From Thermovirga sp. (GTDB lineage: Bacteria; Synergistota; Synergistia; Synergistales; Thermovirgaceae), in the NCBI RefSeq assembly GCF_017656375.1, contig NZ_JACDOB010000002.1, positions 99,239 through 163,238 of the forward strand: 64,000 nt of DNA, given 5' to 3'. The notes beneath the pieces are model-generated. The model had not been told where the DNA came from, did not search any database, and saw only the letters and a list, made by a program, of their open reading frames with translations. Both the position numbers and the translations under genes were made by a program. The number at the start of each line of letters is the position of its first letter. Within the stretch, counting starts at the first letter, position 1. Positions 18,521-59,223 of the stretch are shown one piece after another.

Positions 18521-18548
18521 AAGCGGGCCGGTTAACACCGGCCCGCTT
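18521..18548. terminator. Terminator after yqeY
   Basis: A 12-bp stem AAGCGGGCCGGT/ACCGGCCCGCTT with a TAAC loop and A/T-rich flanks on both sides. It ends the HIT-rpsU-yqeY unit and isolates the nrd promoter. Confidence 0.9.
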
Positions 18549-18617: not shown

Positions 18618-19070
18618 CTACCTAAGCAACCTCTCCACCACGTTTCTCACCGTAGCACCATCAGCTTTACCTTTTACATGAGGCATAAGCTTACCCATAA
18701 CCTTCCCAAGATCCGAAATGCCTTTGGCGCCTGTTTCTTCTATTATCTTCTTCGCCAACTGCAGGATCTGCTCCTCAGATAGCTGCTCTGGTAGGTATTT
18801 CTCTAGAATAGACACCTCCGCTCTCTCCTGCTCAGCTCTATCTCTGACTCCAACAGCTTCGTATTGTTCAGCAGCTTCTTTCCGTTGTTTTATCATTCGC
18901 CTCAGTAATACTATATAATCATCTTCACTCAAGGAAGCATCCTTCCCTTTTTCAACCTTTTTGTTTTGTATGGAAGATTTCAACATCCTGAGGACATCTA
19001 CTACTTTAGTATCGCCCTTTTTAAGCGCATCTACAAAGTCCTGCTGGATCTTTTTCTCAAACTCTTTCAA
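18618..19070 (-). CDS. yqeY: GatB/YqeY-domain protein
   Basis: 150 aa, all-helical YqeY family, related to the tail domain of the GatB amidotransferase subunit. It probably touches tRNA, but its precise role is not established. Typical segments are DVLRMLKSSIQNKKVEKG, ISILEKYLPEQLSEEQ-like VSILEKYLPEQLSEEQI, and the C-terminal GKVMGKLMPHVKGKADGATV. Four bases after rpsU, an arrangement common in Firmicutes and relatives. Confidence 0.9.
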   Translation of the reverse strand: MKEFEKKIQQDFVDALKKGDTKVVDVLRMLKSSIQNKKVEKGKDASLSEDDYIVLLRRMIKQRKEAAEQYEAVGVRDRAEQERAEVSILEKYLPEQLSEEQILQLAKKIIEETGAKGISDLGKVMGKLMPHVKGKADGATVRNVVERLLR

Positions 19071-19074
19071 CTCG

Positions 19075-19251
19075 CTACCTCCTCTTTTTTCTCCTGGCAG
19101 CCTCTCTCTTCCTTTTCTTTTCCTCGCTAGGTTTTTCGTAATGCTGGCGCCTGCGGGCTTCTCTCAAAACTCCGCCCTTGGAAACTTCTCTTTTAAAACG
19201 CCTCAAAGCATCTTCGAGAGATTCATTTTCCCTGCGTACTACCTCGGTCAT
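19075..19251 (-). CDS. rpsU: 30S ribosomal protein S21 (bS21)
   Basis: 58 aa from the ATG at 19251, preceded by AAAGGGGGGAAGAG; the track ORF begins 37 codons too early. Basic protein beginning [23 protein letters not shown] and ending in a [14 protein letters not shown] tail, as bS21 does. bS21 sits near the anti-Shine-Dalgarno end of 16S rRNA. Middle gene of HIT-rpsU-yqeY. Confidence 0.95.
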
Positions 19252-19279: not shown

Positions 19280-19624
19280 CTAACCCGGGGGCCATTGAAA
19301 AAACCGACCTGACAGTAAGTGTACATGAAGATGATGTACCGTTTGTCCAGCCCGGTCTCCACAGTTTACCACAACACGATAGCCATCCTCGACAAGTCCA
19401 AGATCTCTCGCAACCTTAGTTGCTGTACCCATAAGAACAGACCACAGCGAAGGATCTTCCACCTGATCTGCCGAGGATATGTGTTCCCTTGGAATAACCA
19501 GCAAATGAGTAGGCGCCTGGGGGTTAATATCCCTTATGACTGCTACTTTTTCATCTTTGTATACAAAATGTGCAGGCAACTCTCCATCTAATATCCGACA
19601 AAAGACACAATCACCATTCACCAA
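19280..19624 (-). CDS. HIT-family nucleotide hydrolase
   Basis: 114 aa, HINT-like branch. The zinc-type Cys at the N-terminus ([13 protein letters not shown]), the central [12 protein letters not shown] and the catalytic histidine triad HHLHVHLL are intact. Members hydrolyse nucleoside phosphoramidates such as AMP-NH2 or AMP-lysine. Precedes rpsU by 28 bp and is presumably the first gene of that unit. Confidence 0.93.
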
Positions 19625-19656
19625 CGGCCACCTCTCTTATGCGTGCCTCTATTTTA

Positions 19657-19682
19657 GAAAAGGTTTGTCATTTAGACAACCA
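19657..19682 (-). terminator. Probable terminator after bpsA
   Basis: On the minus strand GGTTGTC-TAAAT-GACAA-A-CC (one bulged A) is followed by TTTTCT. It lies 20 bp beyond the bpsA stop. Confidence 0.5.
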
Positions 19683-19702: not shown

Positions 19703-20773
19703 TTAAACTGTGGAACTTTCAGAATCATTATAGATATCAGAATCCGTTAAATCTTCGTTATCTAAAGGAATTTCTTCCACTACTTCCACCCTAAAAATAG
19801 AGGAATAATACCAGTTATCTACGGGTTTCACCTTAACTGGTGCCAATTTCCATGCCAACATTTCTTCAGCATAATTCCAATTGACATATTCATTGAAATT
19901 ACGAATGATGTCTGTTACAACCAAGCCCTTATTTATAAGGACCTGTTCAAGCTGTCTCCACTTAACAAAGGAACTCTCACTGCTCGTCAGCCCAAAATAA
20001 CCAGCTCCCCCCATACCCTTGAGAGTCGCAACCCCCCTTCCAACGAAAGCGGCTAAAGCAGCTACCGTTTCAGGTGGGTCACAGAAAAACACATCAAAGG
20101 ACTTAAGCAAATCTTCAGGTAGCGGCTTTCGTAAATCATGCCTTCTTACCTCTAAATTAGAAAGCCCCAATTCGGCAGCTTTTTTCTTCTGGAAATCGAC
20201 TATCCTCTCATCTATCTCTAACATTACGACTCTACGAGGAAGCTTCGTAATAGCCAAAGCAAGAGCAACCATATCATCGTCTCCTAGGACTATGATATCT
20301 CTGCCTCTTATATCTCCCCGACCATCAGCTAGAGATATTCTCGCAAAAGTAGTTTCCGGCGTAACATATGCCTGGTCGTATTGCCTTATAGCTTCAGGTC
20401 GTTCTTGATGCAATTCTAGGAATTTTTCATATGGTCTTTTCAAAGAGTCATCTAGAACTATAGTCCGCCCTTTACACGTAGGGCACAAATGGGTATGTAA
20501 TGCCTCTATCCTCTCAGCCTTGCAGAAAGCTTCCCCCTCTTGAGTAAGTTTTATATCATTATCTTCTATCGCTATTAGACCGTCCCTTGCCATTAGTTGA
20601 ATTAATTCTGCCACCATAGGTACAGGCTCTTCCGCAAGCTGGACTATCTTCCAAAAATTTGAACTCAGCATTATTGCCGCTAATACCCTCTCCACATCTC
20701 TCTCTCTTACCACAATGCTTGTATTCCGAGCTGCTTCTTCTGCGTAGCTCTTTATTTTATTCATAGAGTTCAA
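19703..20773 (-). CDS. bpsA: Branched-chain polyamine synthase BpsA (N4-bis(aminopropyl)spermidine synthase family, DUF43)
   Basis: 356 aa. BpsA adds two aminopropyl groups from decarboxylated SAM to spermidine, giving a branched quaternary polyamine known from hyperthermophilic archaea and some thermophilic bacteria. Seen here are an N-terminal winged-helix-like region (about 25-95), a zinc-type CPTCKG, and the methyltransferase-like domain with the active-site loop VLGDDDMVALA, MLEIDERIVDF and FFCDPPET. Start: a TTG at 20773 eight bases after AAAGGGGGG; the track start is a TTG lying before that site. It follows mtaB at the end of the CIRCE-controlled heat-shock operon. SpeD, the source of decarboxylated SAM, is at 58.8-59.2 kb. 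Confidence 0.85.
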   Translation of the reverse strand: MNSMNKIKSYAEEAARNTSIVVRERDVERVLAAIMLSSNFWKIVQLAEEPVPMVAELIQLMARDGLIAIEDNDIKLTQEGEAFCKAERIEALHTHLCPTCKGRTIVLDDSLKRPYEKFLELHQERPEAIRQYDQAYVTPETTFARISLADGRGDIRGRDIIVLGDDDMVALALAITKLPRRVVMLEIDERIVDFQKKKAAELGLSNLEVRRHDLRKPLPEDLLKSFDVFFCDPPETVAALAAFVGRGVATLKGMGGAGYFGLTSSESSFVKWRQLEQVLINKGLVVTDIIRNFNEYVNWNYAEEMLAWKLAPVKVKPVDNWYYSSIFRVEVVEEIPLDNEDLTDSDIYNDSESSTV

Positions 20774-20812: not shown

Positions 20813-22129
20813 TTATAATATAATACCATAAAGGTTGCCATCCTCGGCACTATTCACAAAAACCTTCACAACTTCATTTTGCATAGCTGAGCCATTGGCC
20901 TTAACTCTCAAAAAATGAGGTGTTAACCCCTCTACTATACAACAGGTACTTTCCTCTACCAAAACAGAAACGTTTTTACCTATCCATCTTCTGGCATATC
21001 TATCAAGTAAGCGATCCCTTAAAAGAATGGCTTCTTTTACTCTTTCGTGTATTCGCTCTTTTGTTAAGTCGCTTTTCAATGCATAAGCCCTCGTTCCCTT
21101 TCGGGCAGAATAGGGGAAAACGTGAATTCTGCCAAAAGCCAAACTTTCCACAAGAGAAAGGGTATTTTTAAACATCTCATCAGTTTCACCAGGAAAGCCT
21201 ACTATTATGTCGGTTCCTATATGTACATCATCACCAAAAGCTTCTCTAAACCATGAAATCACCCTCGCAAAATCCAAAGAAGCATATCCCCTACTCATGG
21301 CTTCCAACACGCGGTCGTCACCGCTTTGAAGCGGCAAATGAAAGTGAGGGCACAATTTGCTAATCGATGCAAGCCTATACACCAAATCCCTGTCTATCCC
21401 AAAAGGCTCTATGGAGCCAAATCGTATTCTCTCCAGTCCATTTATGTCGGATAAGCTCTCCACCAAATCTGCCAATGTAGAACCTATATCTTTTCCATAA
21501 AATCCTAATTGAATTCCTGTCAAAACCACTTCTTTGCAGCCGTTGGCCACAAGGGTTTTCACTTCCTTCACGGCACTTTCCAGTGGCCTGCTAACTGGCC
21601 TACCTCGCACACTAGGTATAATGCAGTAAGAACAACTCCTCGAACATCCATCCTGCACTTTTACGAAAGCTCTAGTGTGGAAATGAGGTTTTGCAAGCAA
21701 GAGGTCGTCCCATTTTTCACAATATTGCAAGGATCGTCTCTCCACTATTAGTCTCTTTTCTTCCGATTCATCTAGAAGATTGATCAAAATTTCTGGGATA
21801 CGGCTTTTCATTCTATTACCTACGAGGGCATCTATACCAAGAGCCTTGGCTTCATCTTCCGTAGACTTTTGTGCCCAACAACCGCACACCACTATTCGTG
21901 CTGCAGGAGAAAATCTTTTAAGTTTACGAATTAACTGTCTAGATTTGCGATCAGCCTCCTGTGTCACAGTACAACTGTTTATTATCGCAACATCAAACAA
22001 AGATTCTTTCACTATTACAGCACCGTACGCCTCCAAGGCTGAGGCTATGGCTTCAGATTCATATAAATTGCTTCTGCAACCAAGGGTTTCTATTCTTACC
22101 TTCTTACCCTTCAAAACTTCATGAGACAT
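20813..22129 (-). CDS. mtaB: tRNA (N6-threonylcarbamoyladenosine(37)-C2)-methylthiotransferase MtaB
   Basis: 438 aa from the ATG at 22129, eight bases after AAAGGA, itself at the rsmE stop. Radical-SAM enzyme converting t6A37 to ms2t6A37. Order: N-terminal methylthiotransferase domain with three cysteines (TLGCRSN, NSCTVTQEAD, VVCGCWAQ), radical-SAM motif CSRSCSYCIIPSVRG and a C-terminal TRAM domain. The CGCWAQ and VRGRPVSRP wording favours MtaB over MiaB. Operon neighbour of rsmE and prmA. Confidence 0.92.
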   Translation of the reverse strand: MSHEVLKGKKVRIETLGCRSNLYESEAIASALEAYGAVIVKESLFDVAIINSCTVTQEADRKSRQLIRKLKRFSPAARIVVCGCWAQKSTEDEAKALGIDALVGNRMKSRIPEILINLLDESEEKRLIVERRSLQYCEKWDDLLLAKPHFHTRAFVKVQDGCSRSCSYCIIPSVRGRPVSRPLESAVKEVKTLVANGCKEVVLTGIQLGFYGKDIGSTLADLVESLSDINGLERIRFGSIEPFGIDRDLVYRLASISKLCPHFHLPLQSGDDRVLEAMSRGYASLDFARVISWFREAFGDDVHIGTDIIVGFPGETDEMFKNTLSLVESLAFGRIHVFPYSARKGTRAYALKSDLTKERIHERVKEAILLRDRLLDRYARRWIGKNVSVLVEESTCCIVEGLTPHFLRVKANGSAMQNEVVKVFVNSAEDGNLYGIIL

Positions 22130-22133
22130 TAGA

Positions 22134-22853
22134 TCATTCCTTTTCCAGTAGCATAGACAAAATAGCTGTTCCAACAGCTGCTGCCGTCGGGGATCGCATT
22201 ATCCTGGCTCCCAGCCTAACTGGCTTGAAGCCAAAATCCTCAAGCATTTGCATCTCTGCTTCAGACCAATCTCCCTCAGGTCCTATTGCTATAGCCGCTT
22301 TGTCTTTCGGGGCACAGTCTAAAAGGTCAATACTTCCCCTGCCTAAAAATGCACCATACTTGAAAGCTGGCAAAGACAATGCATCTATGTCTTTTACCTT
22401 AATCACAGGAAATAATTCAGGTATACTAAAAGCTCTAGCTTGTTTAGTAGCTTCGCTCAAAATAAGCTTCCACCTTCTCATCTTTGCCTCGACTCGACTA
22501 CCTTCGATCTTCACGACACTTCTTTCACAACGTAGAGGTACTATAGCTGTGGCACCACACTCAGTTACTTGCCTCAACGCCAATTCAAATGCTTCTGTTT
22601 TAGTCAAACCTAATAAGACCCAAAGTTCTCTTTTGGGAGAAGTTTTTATCTCCTCTTCCACATATCCTAGCAATTTACCCTCTTCAATTTTCAATCTGAG
22701 GATAAGCAATCTACCCTCCATCAGGGCTTCAACCTTTTGTCCATTTTTACATCTACGAACATTTAGCAAATGATGGGCTTCAGAAGGTTCTATTAACCAG
22801 GTCTTACTATCTATTCTCAGACTGCCCTCCAGACGTATTCTGGGCAACGACAC
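22134..22853 (-). CDS. rsmE: 16S rRNA (uracil(1498)-N(3))-methyltransferase RsmE
   Basis: 239 aa, SPOUT-family methyltransferase acting on U1498 of 16S rRNA. N-terminal PUA-like part with HHLLNVRRCKNGQKV, then the knotted SAM site in AIAIGPEGDWSEAEM and LGARIMRSPTAAAVGTAIL. Starts with GTG at 22853, overlapping the prmA tail by 47 bp, with GGGAG upstream inside prmA. Confidence 0.93.
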   Translation of the reverse strand: MSLPRIRLEGSLRIDSKTWLIEPSEAHHLLNVRRCKNGQKVEALMEGRLLILRLKIEEGKLLGYVEEEIKTSPKRELWVLLGLTKTEAFELALRQVTECGATAIVPLRCERSVVKIEGSRVEAKMRRWKLILSEATKQARAFSIPELFPVIKVKDIDALSLPAFKYGAFLGRGSIDLLDCAPKDKAAIAIGPEGDWSEAEMQMLEDFGFKPVRLGARIMRSPTAAAVGTAILSMLLEKE

Positions 22854-23703
22854 CCCACCAATCTCCCTTCGTCGTTTCTTCTAACACTTTAAATCCTATT
22901 TCTTGCAAAGCCGAAATAAAAGGATCCCTTTCTTTCTTAACCAATCCTGAAAAAACAGCCCTTCCTCCCTTTTTTAGTTTGGAAGGTAAGGACGGCAAAA
23001 GCTTTATTAGCGGATCAAAAATAATATTGGCAGTTACAAGATCCACCAATTCGTGTAATCCATCAAGCAAATTGCCTTGCTCCACCTCAACTAAATCTTC
23101 AGGGATTTCGTTTAACTTCAAATTGGACTCCACTTCCTCCAATACAGCCGGATCCAAATCTCTAGCAAAGACCTTTTTCGCTCCGAGCTTAACAGCAGCT
23201 ATGGCCAAAATTCCAGAGCCCGTCCCAACATCCGCTACAACATCACCTTGATTAACGCTCTTTTCCAAAAGCTCAAGGGCTATCTGAGTACTTTCATGAT
23301 ACCCTGTTCCAAAAGCCGTACCTGGATAAACTAAAAGGACACTCTTACCCTTTCGATCTTCAAAAGAATCCTTATGCCAAGGGGCCATGACTACTAATGC
23401 CTTGCCCACTTCTATAGGTGGAAAGGCTTCCTTCCATACAGTGTGCCATCTCTCGTTCTCAATTTTCCCAGCATCTATAATCCTTAACGTCGGCCAAGGT
23501 TCAAGCACCTCATTGATTTTGCTAATCCAATACTCCAAAGCATGCGATGACCTGTAGTAAGCTTTAACAGCTAATTTATCCTGTGTGTCAAGCAATTCAG
23601 AACCCATACTACCAGAAAGATCCACTAACGAGATAAGGGTTTCCTCTTCCATGCCTTTAGATTCTATGGTCACGTACCACCAGAAGCTACCTTTTTCTTC
23701 CAT
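22807..23703 (-). CDS. prmA: Ribosomal protein L11 methyltransferase
   Basis: 298 aa from the ATG at 23703, preceded by GGAGGAGGAG; the track's earlier TTG is part of that site. Trimethylates uL11. N-terminal substrate-binding domain, then a Rossmann methyltransferase with LVYPGTAFGTGYHEST, VADVGTGSGILAIAAVKLGA, FARDLDPAVL and VTANIIFDPLIKLLP. Follows dnaJ as in many Firmicutes-type heat-shock operons. Confidence 0.93.
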   Translation of the reverse strand: MEEKGSFWWYVTIESKGMEEETLISLVDLSGSMGSELLDTQDKLAVKAYYRSSHALEYWISKINEVLEPWPTLRIIDAGKIENERWHTVWKEAFPPIEVGKALVVMAPWHKDSFEDRKGKSVLLVYPGTAFGTGYHESTQIALELLEKSVNQGDVVADVGTGSGILAIAAVKLGAKKVFARDLDPAVLEEVESNLKLNEIPEDLVEVEQGNLLDGLHELVDLVTANIIFDPLIKLLPSLPSKLKKGGRAVFSGLVKKERDPFISALQEIGFKVLEETTKGDWWGVVAQNTSGGQSENR

Positions 23704-23744
23704 GGGGCTCTCCTCCTCCAATATTGCATCTTTACTCGAAATCC

Positions 23745-24860
23745 CTAAAGCAAATTCTTCAATTTCTCTAAGAACCCTCCAGATTTAACACTGACATTCA
23801 TTTCCTTCGCAAGGGCTTCTATTAAACCTTTCTGCTTGTCCGTCAACTTTTTAGGTATATCGACAACAATATGGACAAGACAGTCCCCACGTCCTGGTCG
23901 CCTAAGCCTAGGCATCCCTCTTCCTTTTATCTTGAAGACGTGACCATTCTGAACGCCCTGAGGAATATCCAGCTTATATCTTCCATCAAGAAGCTCAACT
24001 TCTTTTTCGCACCCCAAGGCAGCTTCCGGAAAGGAAAGGTGCAAAGACATATGCAGGTTATCCCCTTCCCTTTTAAAAATATCATGAGAAGCAACGCTTA
24101 TAACTAAAAACAAGTCTCCTGGAGGGCCACCCCTTAAGCCCTCCATTCCTTCTCCTTGGATCCTAAGCCTTACCCCTGTATCTACTCCTTTAGGAACAGT
24201 CACTTTAACTTTACGATAGACTCTTGTCTTTCCACTTCCACCACATTCACCACAAACTTTTTCTATGATCTTACCTTTACCTTTACACTCTGGGCAAACA
24301 GTGACGCTAACAAAAGAGCCAAAAGGAGTCCGTCTATGCTGTTCTACTTGCCCTGTTCCACCACACACAGAACAAACCTTTGTCCCGTACCCCGGTTCTG
24401 CCCCTGTCCCATCACATCTTTTGCAGCGTTCCCATCGTGGAACGGAAATTTCCTTAGAAACACCAGTAAGCGCCTCTTCCAAAGAAACATCAAGACGCAT
24501 CTCTATGTCCTGCCCCTTCACGGGTCCCTGAGAAGCTCCTCCAAAATTACCAAATATAGAATCGAATATATCTCCAAAGATGTCGCCAAACCCACCAAAG
24601 GGACCAAAAGGGCCAGAGCCACCTTGGGCATCTCCTATTGTTCCAAATTGATCATACTGTTGCCTTTTCTGAGGATCACTCAATATCTCATAAGCAGCAT
24701 TTATTTCCTTGAAACGCTGCTCAGCCTCGCTGTCTCCTGGGTTGGCATCAGGATGATACTTCCTTACCAGGCGCCTGTAAGCTTTTTTTATTTCATCTTG
24801 TGTAGCATTTCTTGGCACTCCCAATATCTCGTAAAGATCCTTGTCATCAAAGGCGCCCAT
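23745..24860 (-). CDS. dnaJ: Chaperone protein DnaJ
   Basis: 371 aa. J domain (about 5-75) with the HPD tripeptide in [12 protein letters not shown], a Gly/Phe-rich linker ([11 protein letters not shown]), four zinc repeats ([32 protein letters not shown]) and two C-terminal beta domains. Stimulates DnaK ATPase and delivers unfolded clients. Behind GAGAGGTGA, 18 bp after dnaK. Confidence 0.97.
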
Positions 24861-24878: not shown

Positions 24879-26714
<1,836 letters not shown>

Positions 26715-26745: not shown

Positions 26746-27396
26746 CTATTCATCCTTTTTTGTCTCTTCAGCTGTGGATGTTGATTTGCCAACCTTAACT
26801 TTCGCCGCTCTCAGAACTTTGCCACCAAGGACAAACCCTTTCTGATACTCTTCTAACACCTTACCATCCAACTCCGGTTCTACTTCTTCTGCAGCCAAAG
26901 CCTCATGTACAGAGGGATCAAAGTCTTTCCCCTCAGATTCTATGGGTTCCAATCCCAACTTGCACATAACATCCATGAATTGTTTCCTGATTATCCTGAT
27001 CCCGCTTTTTATTTTTTCGGCATCATCATTATCATTTGCCGAAAGAGCCCTATCTAAATTGTCGAGTACAGGCAAAAGCTCCTTTATGGTTTTTTCTGTC
27101 GCCAAAGCACTTAATTTTTCCTTTTCTCTTTCCACCCTTTGTCTGTAGTTATAAAAATCTGCCGTAGCCCTCAGAGCTGCGTCCTTAAGTTTCGCATTCT
27201 CCTCTTTTAGCTCCTCTATAAGAGCTTTGAGCTTTTCGTTTTCTTCCACTAGACTCTCCAGCGAAGAAGTGCTTTCCTCAACAGCGCTTTCATTGTTTTC
27301 ATTCTCCTGGCCCTCATTTTTACCCAAAGAGATATCTTCTATTGCTTGTTCTGTTACCTCTCTTTTAGCATCTTCATGTTTTTTCTTTTTGGTCAT
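26746..27396 (-). CDS. grpE: Nucleotide exchange factor GrpE
   Basis: 216 aa. Charged N-terminal region, long coiled coil (about 45-100, EENEKLKALIEELKEENAKL), RATADFYNYRQRVEREKE, then the C-terminal beta domain with VHEALAAEE and LGGKVLRAAKVKVGK. Releases ADP from DnaK. The ATG overlaps the hrcA stop by four bases. Confidence 0.95.
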   Translation of the reverse strand: MTKKKKHEDAKREVTEQAIEDISLGKNEGQENENNESAVEESTSSLESLVEENEKLKALIEELKEENAKLKDAALRATADFYNYRQRVEREKEKLSALATEKTIKELLPVLDNLDRALSANDNDDAEKIKSGIRIIRKQFMDVMCKLGLEPIESEGKDFDPSVHEALAAEEVEPELDGKVLEEYQKGFVLGGKVLRAAKVKVGKSTSTAEETKKDE

Positions 27397-28424
27397 ATGT
27401 CATCCACCTCCTCTTCCACATCCGTCGAGATACTATCCAAAACAGCTTCTAAGACAGATATGGAACGTTCATAATCCATTCTGACAGGACCTATTAGCCC
27501 AAGCACTGTTTTTTTGCCATCTGCAATATTAGAAGCCATTATCACTGAACAATCTTCTATAGGAAACGCTGGATCCTCCTTGCCTATCATCACAGAAAGC
27601 CCTTTATCCGGCGAAAACTTTTGAACGAGCTCTGCGATTGAAGATTCCTCTTCCAGAAGAGCCATTACAACCTGCAATCTGCTCAAATCTGCGAAATCTG
27701 GAAGACTCAGTATGTTATGTTTCCCACCTGTAAACAGGTGGTACGAATCTTTCAACAGAAGAATATCCACTTCATTAAGGGCAGCTTTGCAATTTTCTGC
27801 ATAAGACTGAAGTCCCTGCATTACGTATTTGAGCAATGCATCCCTGACCTTTCTCCATGACTTGCCCGAAGCTACCACTGTTATCCTTTGCGATAGTTCA
27901 TCAAGCGTCTGCTGATCCATGTCTTGGGGAAGCTGCATCGTCTTGTGATGCAACAACCCTCCTTTTAAGATGACAATCAATAGCGCCGTTCGCTCTGCCA
28001 CTTTGACAAACTCAACTTTCTGTAGCACCGCCTCTTCTGCTGGTCCTACAGCTGCCACTCCTATGCAATTAGTCAAATCCCCAAGCAACTTAGTGGCGTA
28101 TCGTAATGCAGATTCAAGGTCGTCTCTCTTTTTTTTCAGCTCCCGAACCCAGTATTGATATTCATCTCCAGGGCTTCTTTGCCTTCGCAGTATGGCATCA
28201 ACGTAAACCCTAAAAGCCTTAGGCGTAGGAAGCCGACCAGCAGACGTATGAGGTTGATAGAGAAAATCCATTTCCTCCAAATCTGCCATTTCATTTCTTA
28301 TAGTTGCGGCGCTTCGCCCCCTTAGATAACGTTTAGCAATAGTCCTTGAGCCAACAGGCTCCCCCGTTTTTATATACTCATACACAACGGCAAGCACTAT
28401 CTCTAGCTGTCTTTCCGTTAGCAT
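27393..28424 (-). CDS. hrcA: Heat-inducible transcription repressor HrcA
   Basis: 343 aa. N-terminal winged helix (LTERQLEIVLAVVYEYIKTGEPVGSRTIA, RSAATIRNEMADLEE) followed by a GAF-like dimerisation part with GCSVI-type segment EDCSVIMASN and a C-terminal helix. Binds CIRCE, which lies 31 bp upstream, and so represses its own operon. First gene of hrcA-grpE-dnaK-dnaJ-prmA-rsmE-mtaB-bpsA. Confidence 0.97.
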   Translation of the reverse strand: MLTERQLEIVLAVVYEYIKTGEPVGSRTIAKRYLRGRSAATIRNEMADLEEMDFLYQPHTSAGRLPTPKAFRVYVDAILRRQRSPGDEYQYWVRELKKKRDDLESALRYATKLLGDLTNCIGVAAVGPAEEAVLQKVEFVKVAERTALLIVILKGGLLHHKTMQLPQDMDQQTLDELSQRITVVASGKSWRKVRDALLKYVMQGLQSYAENCKAALNEVDILLLKDSYHLFTGGKHNILSLPDFADLSRLQVVMALLEEESSIAELVQKFSPDKGLSVMIGKEDPAFPIEDCSVIMASNIADGKKTVLGLIGPVRMDYERSISVLEAVLDSISTDVEEEVDDI

Positions 28425-28455: not shown

Positions 28456-28482
28456 TTAGCACTCCCACCTAGTGAGTGCTAA
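28456..28482 (-). promoter_or_regulatory. CIRCE operator (perfect)
   Basis: TTAGCACTC-N9-GAGTGCTAA, identical to the CIRCE consensus in both arms. It sits between the hrcA promoter and the hrcA start, where HrcA binding blocks transcription. Confidence 0.98.
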
Positions 28483-28505: not shown

Positions 28506-28532
28506 ATTATCAACGAGATGGATTATTGTCAA
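28506..28532 (-). promoter_or_regulatory. hrcA operon promoter
   Basis: Minus-strand TTGACA (28527-28532, perfect) with GATAAT (28506-28511) at a short 15-bp spacing; a weaker TAATCT at 17 bp is the alternative. CIRCE lies directly downstream. Confidence 0.65.
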
Positions 28533-57618: not shown

Positions 57619-58791
57619 TTATTCAGGAGCTTTGAGGTTGTAGGCGGGCTTAAGTATTTTTTCTATCTCAACAGTTTCTTTCAGCTCATCTTGTATATCT
57701 TCCCAGCTTTTGTACGCCATTGGAGCCTCATCTATTGTGTCTTTGCATATCGAAGTAGAAAAAACTCCTTCCATGCTCTTTCTAAAAGTCTCTAAAGTTA
57801 TTTGTCCCTTCTCGAGCATCCTTTTCATCTCTCTCCGGCCATGAGCCCTCCCTGCACCATGGGGTGCGGAGTAATTAAATAATTCGTTGCCCCTGCCAAC
57901 TCCGAGCACGACTCCCTCTGCCATGTTGAGGGGAATGATGACTTTCTCACCTTTGTGGGCTGAAATGGCCCCTTTCCTGACTATTCCATCTCTTTGGCTT
58001 ATGTAATTGTGAACGCTTTGAATCACGCTTTCTATTTTTAACGATTTGCCCCAATATTTCAGGATGATCGCTAAAATAGCCAAACGATTGAGCTCAGCGT
58101 ATCTTTGCGCCACAACAAGCCATTTCATGTAAACCTCTCCGCCTTTATCCATTGGCAGATACTCCAAGCCAGAGGGCAAAGGTTCTGCCCTCTTTTTACA
58201 GAGGTTTTTGGCTTCTCTTTGAAAGAAGTTGGCCACATCGTACCCAAAATGCCTGCTTCCTGTGTGCACTATCAGGTACAGATCCCCTGCCTGTGGGTCC
58301 TGGTCTATTTCTATAAAGTGGTTGCCCCCTCCCAAGGTTCCATACTGGGACCACGGGGGAATTTTGGTTTTCCTTCCCACCTTGCGGCCATAAAAACCAG
58401 CTTCTGCTTGTTCAGACAGGTCCATCATTTCTTCATACATATTAGGGTAGGTTTTCCGGATAACGGCAAGGGCATTTTTGTCTTTATGGTGTTTCATTCC
58501 GAGGGGGATCTTTGCCCGTATATACCTGTCCAGGTCCCCAAAGTTTATATCATCTCTTTTAAGCCCCTCAAGGCATACAGCTGAGACACCGCATCCTATA
58601 TCTACTCCAACCACATTGGGTATGACTCCACCTTCAAACCTTCCAGTAAAGCCTATGACACAACCAGCCCCAGCATGGCAATCAGGCATAATAGCCACCA
58701 GACCCTTTACTACGGGGTGGTGGCTAATGTTTTCTATCTGCTTCAATGTCATTTCGTCAACTTTTTTGGCATGAATAAGCACTTCTACCAT
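57619..58791 (-). CDS. rtcB: RNA-splicing ligase RtcB family
   Basis: About 390 aa from the ATG at 58791; no good Shine-Dalgarno, and a TTG five codons earlier is possible. Joins 2',3'-cyclic phosphate and 5'-OH RNA ends with GTP and Mn. Metal ligands in PDCHAGAGCVIGFT, VVGVDIGCGVSAV, GTLGGGNHFIEI and VHTGSRHFG, and the guanylylated histidine in the YSAPHGAGRAHGRREMKR region. Seven bases after speD if the TTG is used, so co-transcribed with it. Confidence 0.92.
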   Translation of the reverse strand: MVEVLIHAKKVDEMTLKQIENISHHPVVKGLVAIMPDCHAGAGCVIGFTGRFEGGVIPNVVGVDIGCGVSAVCLEGLKRDDINFGDLDRYIRAKIPLGMKHHKDKNALAVIRKTYPNMYEEMMDLSEQAEAGFYGRKVGRKTKIPPWSQYGTLGGGNHFIEIDQDPQAGDLYLIVHTGSRHFGYDVANFFQREAKNLCKKRAEPLPSGLEYLPMDKGGEVYMKWLVVAQRYAELNRLAILAIILKYWGKSLKIESVIQSVHNYISQRDGIVRKGAISAHKGEKVIIPLNMAEGVVLGVGRGNELFNYSAPHGAGRAHGRREMKRMLEKGQITLETFRKSMEGVFSTSICKDTIDEAPMAYKSWEDIQDELKETVEIEKILKPAYNLKAPE

Positions 58792-58812
58792 GATTAAACA
58801 CAACAATCTTTT

Positions 58813-59223
58813 TTATTTATCTTTTTCCAAAACTTCTTCCCATGTTACAAGCGAGTGGTAAAATTCATGATCTCCATTATCTTCCAAACCTCTCGTTATT
58901 TCTGTGACATGTGTATGTTTAGCTTCCACCATTTCAAGAACGTAATCCACAGCTTTCTCTGGAAGGCTTTCTGAACCACAAGTATATATATCCAATGCCA
59001 CATATCCTACTTCTGGCCAAGTATGAACGGACAAGTGGGATTCACTTATAACCACTACTCCACTTACACCATTTGGGGGGAAACGATGAAAAGAAACAGC
59101 CCATATTTGAGCATTGGCTCTTCTTCCAGATTCAACAAGAATTTCTTGCATCTTATCCACTTCCCCTATAACAGGAGAACAGCCTGAGGCTTCAACTATG
59201 AAATGAACTCCTCTTGGGTTCAA
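58813..59223 (-). CDS. speD: S-adenosylmethionine decarboxylase proenzyme
   Basis: 136 aa, TTG start at 59223 behind AAAGGAG. Short bacterial/archaeal SpeH type: self-cleavage before the serine in ISESHLSVHTWPE generates the pyruvoyl cofactor, and ALDIYTCG follows. Makes decarboxylated SAM, the aminopropyl donor for spermidine and for BpsA at 19.7 kb. No speE is in the window. Confidence 0.95.
   Translation of the reverse strand: MNPRGVHFIVEASGCSPVIGEVDKMQEILVESGRRANAQIWAVSFHRFPPNGVSGVVVISESHLSVHTWPEVGYVALDIYTCGSESLPEKAVDYVLEMVEAKHTHVTEITRGLEDNGDHEFYHSLVTWEEVLEKDK

Follow-up and report, generated by a model that had tools for sequence, protein, structure and literature searches.

A branched-chain polyamine synthase gene in the HrcA/CIRCE chaperone operon of a Thermovirga genome

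Branched-chain polyamine synthase (BpsA; EC 2.5.1.128) is represented by the enzymes of Thermococcus kodakarensis and Thermus thermophilus. Branched polyamines have a stabilising effect on both ribosomes and tRNAs, and Thermococcus without bpsA shows reduced growth near its upper temperature limit (PMC12979288). These compounds are regarded as a constant feature of thermophiles, and the bacterial control of their synthesis is hardly known. Their precursor is formed by the thermophile-type spermidine pathway, which runs from agmatine through N1-aminopropylagmatine to spermidine. The heptacistronic dnaK operon of Bacillus subtilis has the order hrcA-grpE-dnaK-dnaJ-yqeT-yqeU-yqeV, according to the account of Homuth 1997 cited in PMC5727486. 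Both the enzyme and the operon are known, and their combination, described here for a Thermovirga genome, is apparently unreported. A search of the open-access literature, with subscription papers outside its scope, found no paper joining bpsA to HrcA or chaperones, and the terms 'heat shock' and 'chaperone' are both absent from a recent review (PMC12979288).

The chaperone operon and the position of bpsA

The window analysed here is a stretch of 64,000 nucleotides (C2:99239-163238) of a 1.8-Mb genome. It carries the gene order hrcA-grpE-dnaK-dnaJ-prmA-rsmE-mtaB-bpsA-hinT-rpsU-yqeY, all on the minus strand, with CIRCE, the operator of the HrcA repressor, ahead of hrcA. The element was located by motif scan at 28456-28482; it is 27 bp long, has no mismatch and lies 31 bp before hrcA, where the expected number of sites with three or fewer mismatches is 0.04. 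Genome-wide there are two CIRCE elements, one at the hrcA operon and one at groES-groEL. A putative promoter upstream of CIRCE (TTGACA-15-GATAAT, 28506-28532, minus strand) was read by eye, its spacer falling below the 16-18 limit of the scan. The repressor gene hrcA (gene 1, 27393-28424) is an open reading frame whose orthologues in relatives keep this gene order, grpE (26746-27396) is likewise an open reading frame with synteny in relatives, and dnaK (24879-26711) was assigned from its open reading frame. Pfam/NCBIfam matches identify dnaJ (23745-24860), prmA (22807-23721), encoding a ribosomal protein L11 methyltransferase, and rsmE (22134-22853), encoding a 16S rRNA methyltransferase. The tRNA methylthiotransferase gene mtaB (20813-22129) scores above the TIGR01579 cut-off; its listed open reading frame opens at 22174, and the likely start is the ATG at 22129. 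The upstream order from hrcA to mtaB and the attachment to CIRCE and HrcA are therefore as the original prediction described them.

The bpsA gene (gene 8, 19703-20773) is a complete open reading frame with a TTG start and the ribosome-binding site AAAGGGGGG. It follows mtaB on the same strand after 39 bp, and this gap contains no terminator-like site, in agreement with the predicted distance of about 40 bp without a terminator. The short or negative gaps, the lack of a terminator and the identical slot in all bpsA-bearing Synergistales (below) make the membership of bpsA in the HrcA/CIRCE operon well supported at the sequence level. The proposal that bpsA stands at the end of the operon, however, did not hold. 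The genes hinT (19280-19624; HIT-family hydrolase, PF01230), rpsU (19075-19251; ribosomal protein S21, PF01165; the listed open reading frame opens at 19362) and yqeY (18618-19070; PF09424) continue on the minus strand, and the first strong terminator, an intrinsic one of 12 pairs followed by a T run on that strand (18521-18548), is found only 3' of yqeY, the last gene before it. The other Thermovirga-type genome, G183, has a strong terminator at the same place. Since no strong terminator intervenes and these three genes share the strand, bpsA is not the last gene of the operon. A promoter-like site (TTGTCT-17-TAAAAT, 19651-19679, minus strand) overlaps a small hairpin in the gap between bpsA and hinT and is conserved in both Thermovirga-type genomes, so that hinT-rpsU-yqeY may have a promoter of their own, and bpsA may be the final gene of the heat-shock part of the operon. 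At another locus of the genome, which has no CIRCE, a further dnaK is followed by a DnaJ-like and a clpB-like gene, the latter read from sequence (L143:7043-12594).

The predicted enzyme and its polyamine supply

The BpsA_C domain is full-length in the window protein (PF01861 positions 3-243 of 243, E 7e-93). The closest solved structures are 5xnc, an N4-bis(aminopropyl)spermidine synthase and thus a BpsA, which is the top PDB match (E 1.3e-108), and 2qm3. In the alignment with 5xnc, 166 of 348 positions (48%) are identical, including the entire GDDD motif and the acceptor-site residues Asp225, Glu259, Tyr290 and Tyr316 (Thermococcus numbering), whose roles in the Thermococcus enzyme are taken from PMC12979288. 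The acidic aminopropyl-carrier cluster at the C terminus reads DIYNDSE in the window protein versus ELYDDEE in Thermococcus, with three of the five acidic positions kept; it is fully acidic in four genomes of a sister class (family f11). The altered carrier motif would suit an enzyme that has drifted to another polyamine product, or a bpsA that is a relic, but the reading frame is intact, the GDDD motif and all four acceptor-site residues are conserved and the BpsA of G183 is 81% identical to that of the window, so that we consider such drift or decay extremely improbable. The comparison confirms bpsA as the predicted gene of a full-length branched-chain polyamine synthase.

Genes for the supply of precursors lie on contig C1, where those for a pyruvoyl arginine decarboxylase (pdaD), speE, speB and speD stand in a row. 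The whole-genome scan found no CIRCE at this cluster and, since speE, speB and the speE-linked speD lack the element, supply may limit the product. The original prediction had also drawn attention to a SpeD encoded in the window. A second speD copy, encoding an AdoMet decarboxylase, is indeed present (58813-59223, minus strand; PF02675, E 4e-35; TIGR03330 above cut-off), but it lies 38 kb away, outside the operon, and is not the copy paired with speE, which lends the proposal little weight. Its immediate downstream neighbour, in the same orientation, is rtcB (57619-59223 for the pair). A proline separates true AdoMet decarboxylase from arginine decarboxylase (PMC10407285); both SpeD copies contain HTWPE, and the proline of this motif is taken here as the probable marker.

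Distribution and history of the bpsA slot

The distribution of bpsA was surveyed by profile search in 188 Synergistota genomes, which contain 15 true bpsA genes, or 16 counting that of G184, so that the gene is present in only 16 of the 188. In G184, which is absent from the profile matches, the first part of bpsA alone is seen, directly 3' of mtaB, before it is cut by the contig end; it is the one exception among 40 mtaB loci of profile-negative genomes, the other 39 having no bpsA at the mtaB junction. Weak PF01861 matches in other genomes were rejected as other Rossmann-fold enzymes, several of them coinciding with speE, and a search for bpsA on plasmids gave no match.

All 11 bpsA-bearing Synergistales genomes have bpsA directly after mtaB, with hrcA visible upstream on 9 contigs. 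Four genomes show an 8-bp overlap of the two genes and two a 38-bp overlap, and four, the window among them (39 bp, taken from its coordinates), have 19-39 bp between the genes; values in the relatives range from -38 to 28 bp. Families f3 and f10 carry, after bpsA, a gene for a divergent Hsp70 (dnaK2), then a J-domain gene and hinT-rpsU, and many genomes without bpsA retain mtaB-dnaK2-J-domain gene-hinT. Both dnaK2 and the J-domain gene are missing from this slot in the window's own family. In G013 and G016 (L063, L064) dnaK2 is reduced to its first codons just 3' of bpsA, a deletion scar. The second Hsp70 of the Synergistales, encoded 3' of mtaB or bpsA (L057:8056-9642, L058:10641-12221 and others), is very divergent and forms long branches in the DnaK tree. 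A J-domain protein is encoded after dnaK2 in many Synergistota (L057:7148-8125, L066:7082-7861, L065:10595-11365).

The chaperone link of bpsA extends beyond the hrcA operon. All five genomes of the sister class (families f11 and f12) have bpsA directly before a dnaK, at a locus separate from the hrcA operon, and a J/HEAT gene, hinT and rpsU follow wherever the contig is long enough. A gene for Hsp20 is near bpsA in both genomes checked, and htrA is near as well. In two genomes of this class the contig extends far enough to show the CIRCE of the hrcA operon, and the element is free of mismatches in both. These loci bear on a reading in which bpsA belongs with the ribosome- and tRNA-maturation half of the operon (prmA, rsmE, mtaB, rpsU), as a constitutive stabiliser of ribosomes and tRNA for which the chaperones merely share an address. 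The neighbours on either side do act on the ribosome or tRNA, both of which branched polyamines stabilise (PMC12979288), yet the bpsA of the sister class, though separated from prmA-rsmE-mtaB, still lies beside a dnaK and a J-domain gene and has hsp20 in its vicinity, and we regard this reading as very unlikely. That dnaK2 is orthologous in the two classes rests on position, the DnaK tree having long branches; in the J-domain protein of the sister class, the remainder consists of HEAT repeats by Pfam. A 31-bp dyad (TATANCAYCTTNTCAAA...TATA) lies before bpsA in all four f11 genomes, between bpsA and a divergent gene (L065:7736-7766, and the same place in L066-L068), with no other copy in these genomes within three mismatches. 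It looks like a putative dedicated operator.

None of hrcA, dnaK, dnaJ or hinT was found in the stretches of DNA analysed around bpsA from Thermococcus, methanogens, Bacteroidota and Chlorobiota. A homologue of speD occurs near bpsA in some Thermococcus or other archaeal loci, at 0.8 kb (L020, L024) or 6 kb (L029). One bpsA labelled 'Thermotogota' (L022) was set aside as a probable binning error, since its end branch has zero length and falls among the Thermococcus sequences.

The BpsA proteins of the Synergistales form one clade (support 97/95), and bpsA may have a single origin within the Synergistota. A tree built from four operon proteins places bpsA in the basal families and, within the family of the window, on one side, for which the minimum number of changes is two. 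Despite this minimum, we infer that bpsA is ancestral and retained, with about three losses, a history favoured by the identical slot. The mtaB-bpsA linkage is old. The (E+K)/(T+Q) ratio of DnaK, HrcA, DnaJ and MtaB is more thermophile-like in bpsA holders (median 1.82 versus 1.50; Mann-Whitney p 3e-6), a difference that is not independent proof since the tree gives only two independent contrasts. The G+C content of 16S rRNA was rejected as a temperature proxy: covering 15 of 37 genomes, two partial, it failed to distinguish the groups (two genomes with bpsA at 57.7 and 60.8%, those without at 55.5-59.7%). G174, identified here tentatively as the moderately thermophilic Thermanaerovibrio acidaminovorans, is without bpsA, and moderate heat alone therefore does not demand the gene. 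A broader history can be imagined, in which bpsA, the second Hsp70 and the J-domain/HEAT protein formed an ancestral Synergistota heat-protection module, with branched polyamine and the dedicated Hsp70 acting jointly on assemblies rich in nucleic acid such as ribosomes and the nucleoid; this module would have joined the CIRCE operon in the Synergistales, with bpsA alone lost from lineages of mesophile-like composition; we consider it decidedly doubtful.

Proposed heat control and comparison with known systems

The same slot within an HrcA-controlled operon suggests that branched-polyamine synthesis is probably co-induced with the chaperones, bpsA being switched up together with them. We consider it likely, though well short of assured, that bpsA is a working synthase gene, the eighth of the HrcA/CIRCE chaperone operon, through which heat, by read-through from the hrcA promoter, leads to more branched polyamine. 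Heat would titrate the HrcA repressor and free the hrcA promoter, from which transcription would run through into bpsA. The extra BpsA, with spermidine from pdaD-speE-speB and decarboxylated AdoMet from the two SpeD proteins, would yield N4-aminopropyl- and N4-bis(aminopropyl)spermidine, which would be tight binders of rRNA, tRNA and DNA, with the chaperones taking care of proteins. Co-transcription, heat induction and the branched product are what we infer from the sequence.

Internal promoters are known from dnaK operons, for example a heat-insensitive one before dnaJ, and segmental mRNA decay can occur in them (PMC5727486). A TGNTATAAT-like box is present at the 3' end of mtaB in several family relatives and was not seen in G183. 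The window has TGGTATTAT at 20820-20828, which is imperfect; it was not accepted as a promoter since it lies within mtaB coding sequence and about 11 such boxes are expected per window. Were a housekeeping promoter at the mtaB 3' end to drive bpsA together with hinT-rpsU-yqeY, the gene order would be frozen, there would be no heat control and branched polyamine would be made constitutively. The boxes in the relatives fit this reading, as do the housekeeping character of hinT-rpsU-yqeY and the precursor genes without a CIRCE link. However, the box in the window is coding-constrained as well as imperfect, none was seen in G183, mtaB and bpsA overlap in six genomes, and hinT has its own conserved promoter-like site 3' of bpsA in both Thermovirga-type genomes; a housekeeping promoter for bpsA is therefore unlikely, although it deserves some weight. 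Should read-through from the hrcA promoter prove true, a known heat-shock repressor would directly control the branching enzyme. The arrangement is real, conserved and testable, and the keeping or loss of bpsA at one fixed slot in the phylum provides matched species with and without the gene, in which it can be asked whether a single response governs both the protein chaperones and a nucleic-acid protectant.

The closest described systems each share part of this arrangement. The pdaD, speE, speB and speD genes of the thermophile-type spermidine pathway are adjacent in the window genome, but the set is unlinked to bpsA and without CIRCE, and the substrates of SpeE and SpeB are predicted. The same seven genes stand in the same order behind CIRCE in the dnaK operon of B. 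subtilis as in the window, and rpsU and yqeY are presumably also nearby downstream of that operon in Bacillus; the window operon differs in the insertion of bpsA and hinT between mtaB and rpsU, to which relatives add dnaK2 and a J-domain gene. The homology of the window protein to the BpsA of T. kodakarensis and Thermus thermophilus is full-length, and the 48% identity is to the T. kodakarensis enzyme, with which it has in common the GDDD motif and acceptor residues. It differs in its acidic C-terminal cluster, of which only part is retained, and in the placing of its gene in a heat-shock operon.
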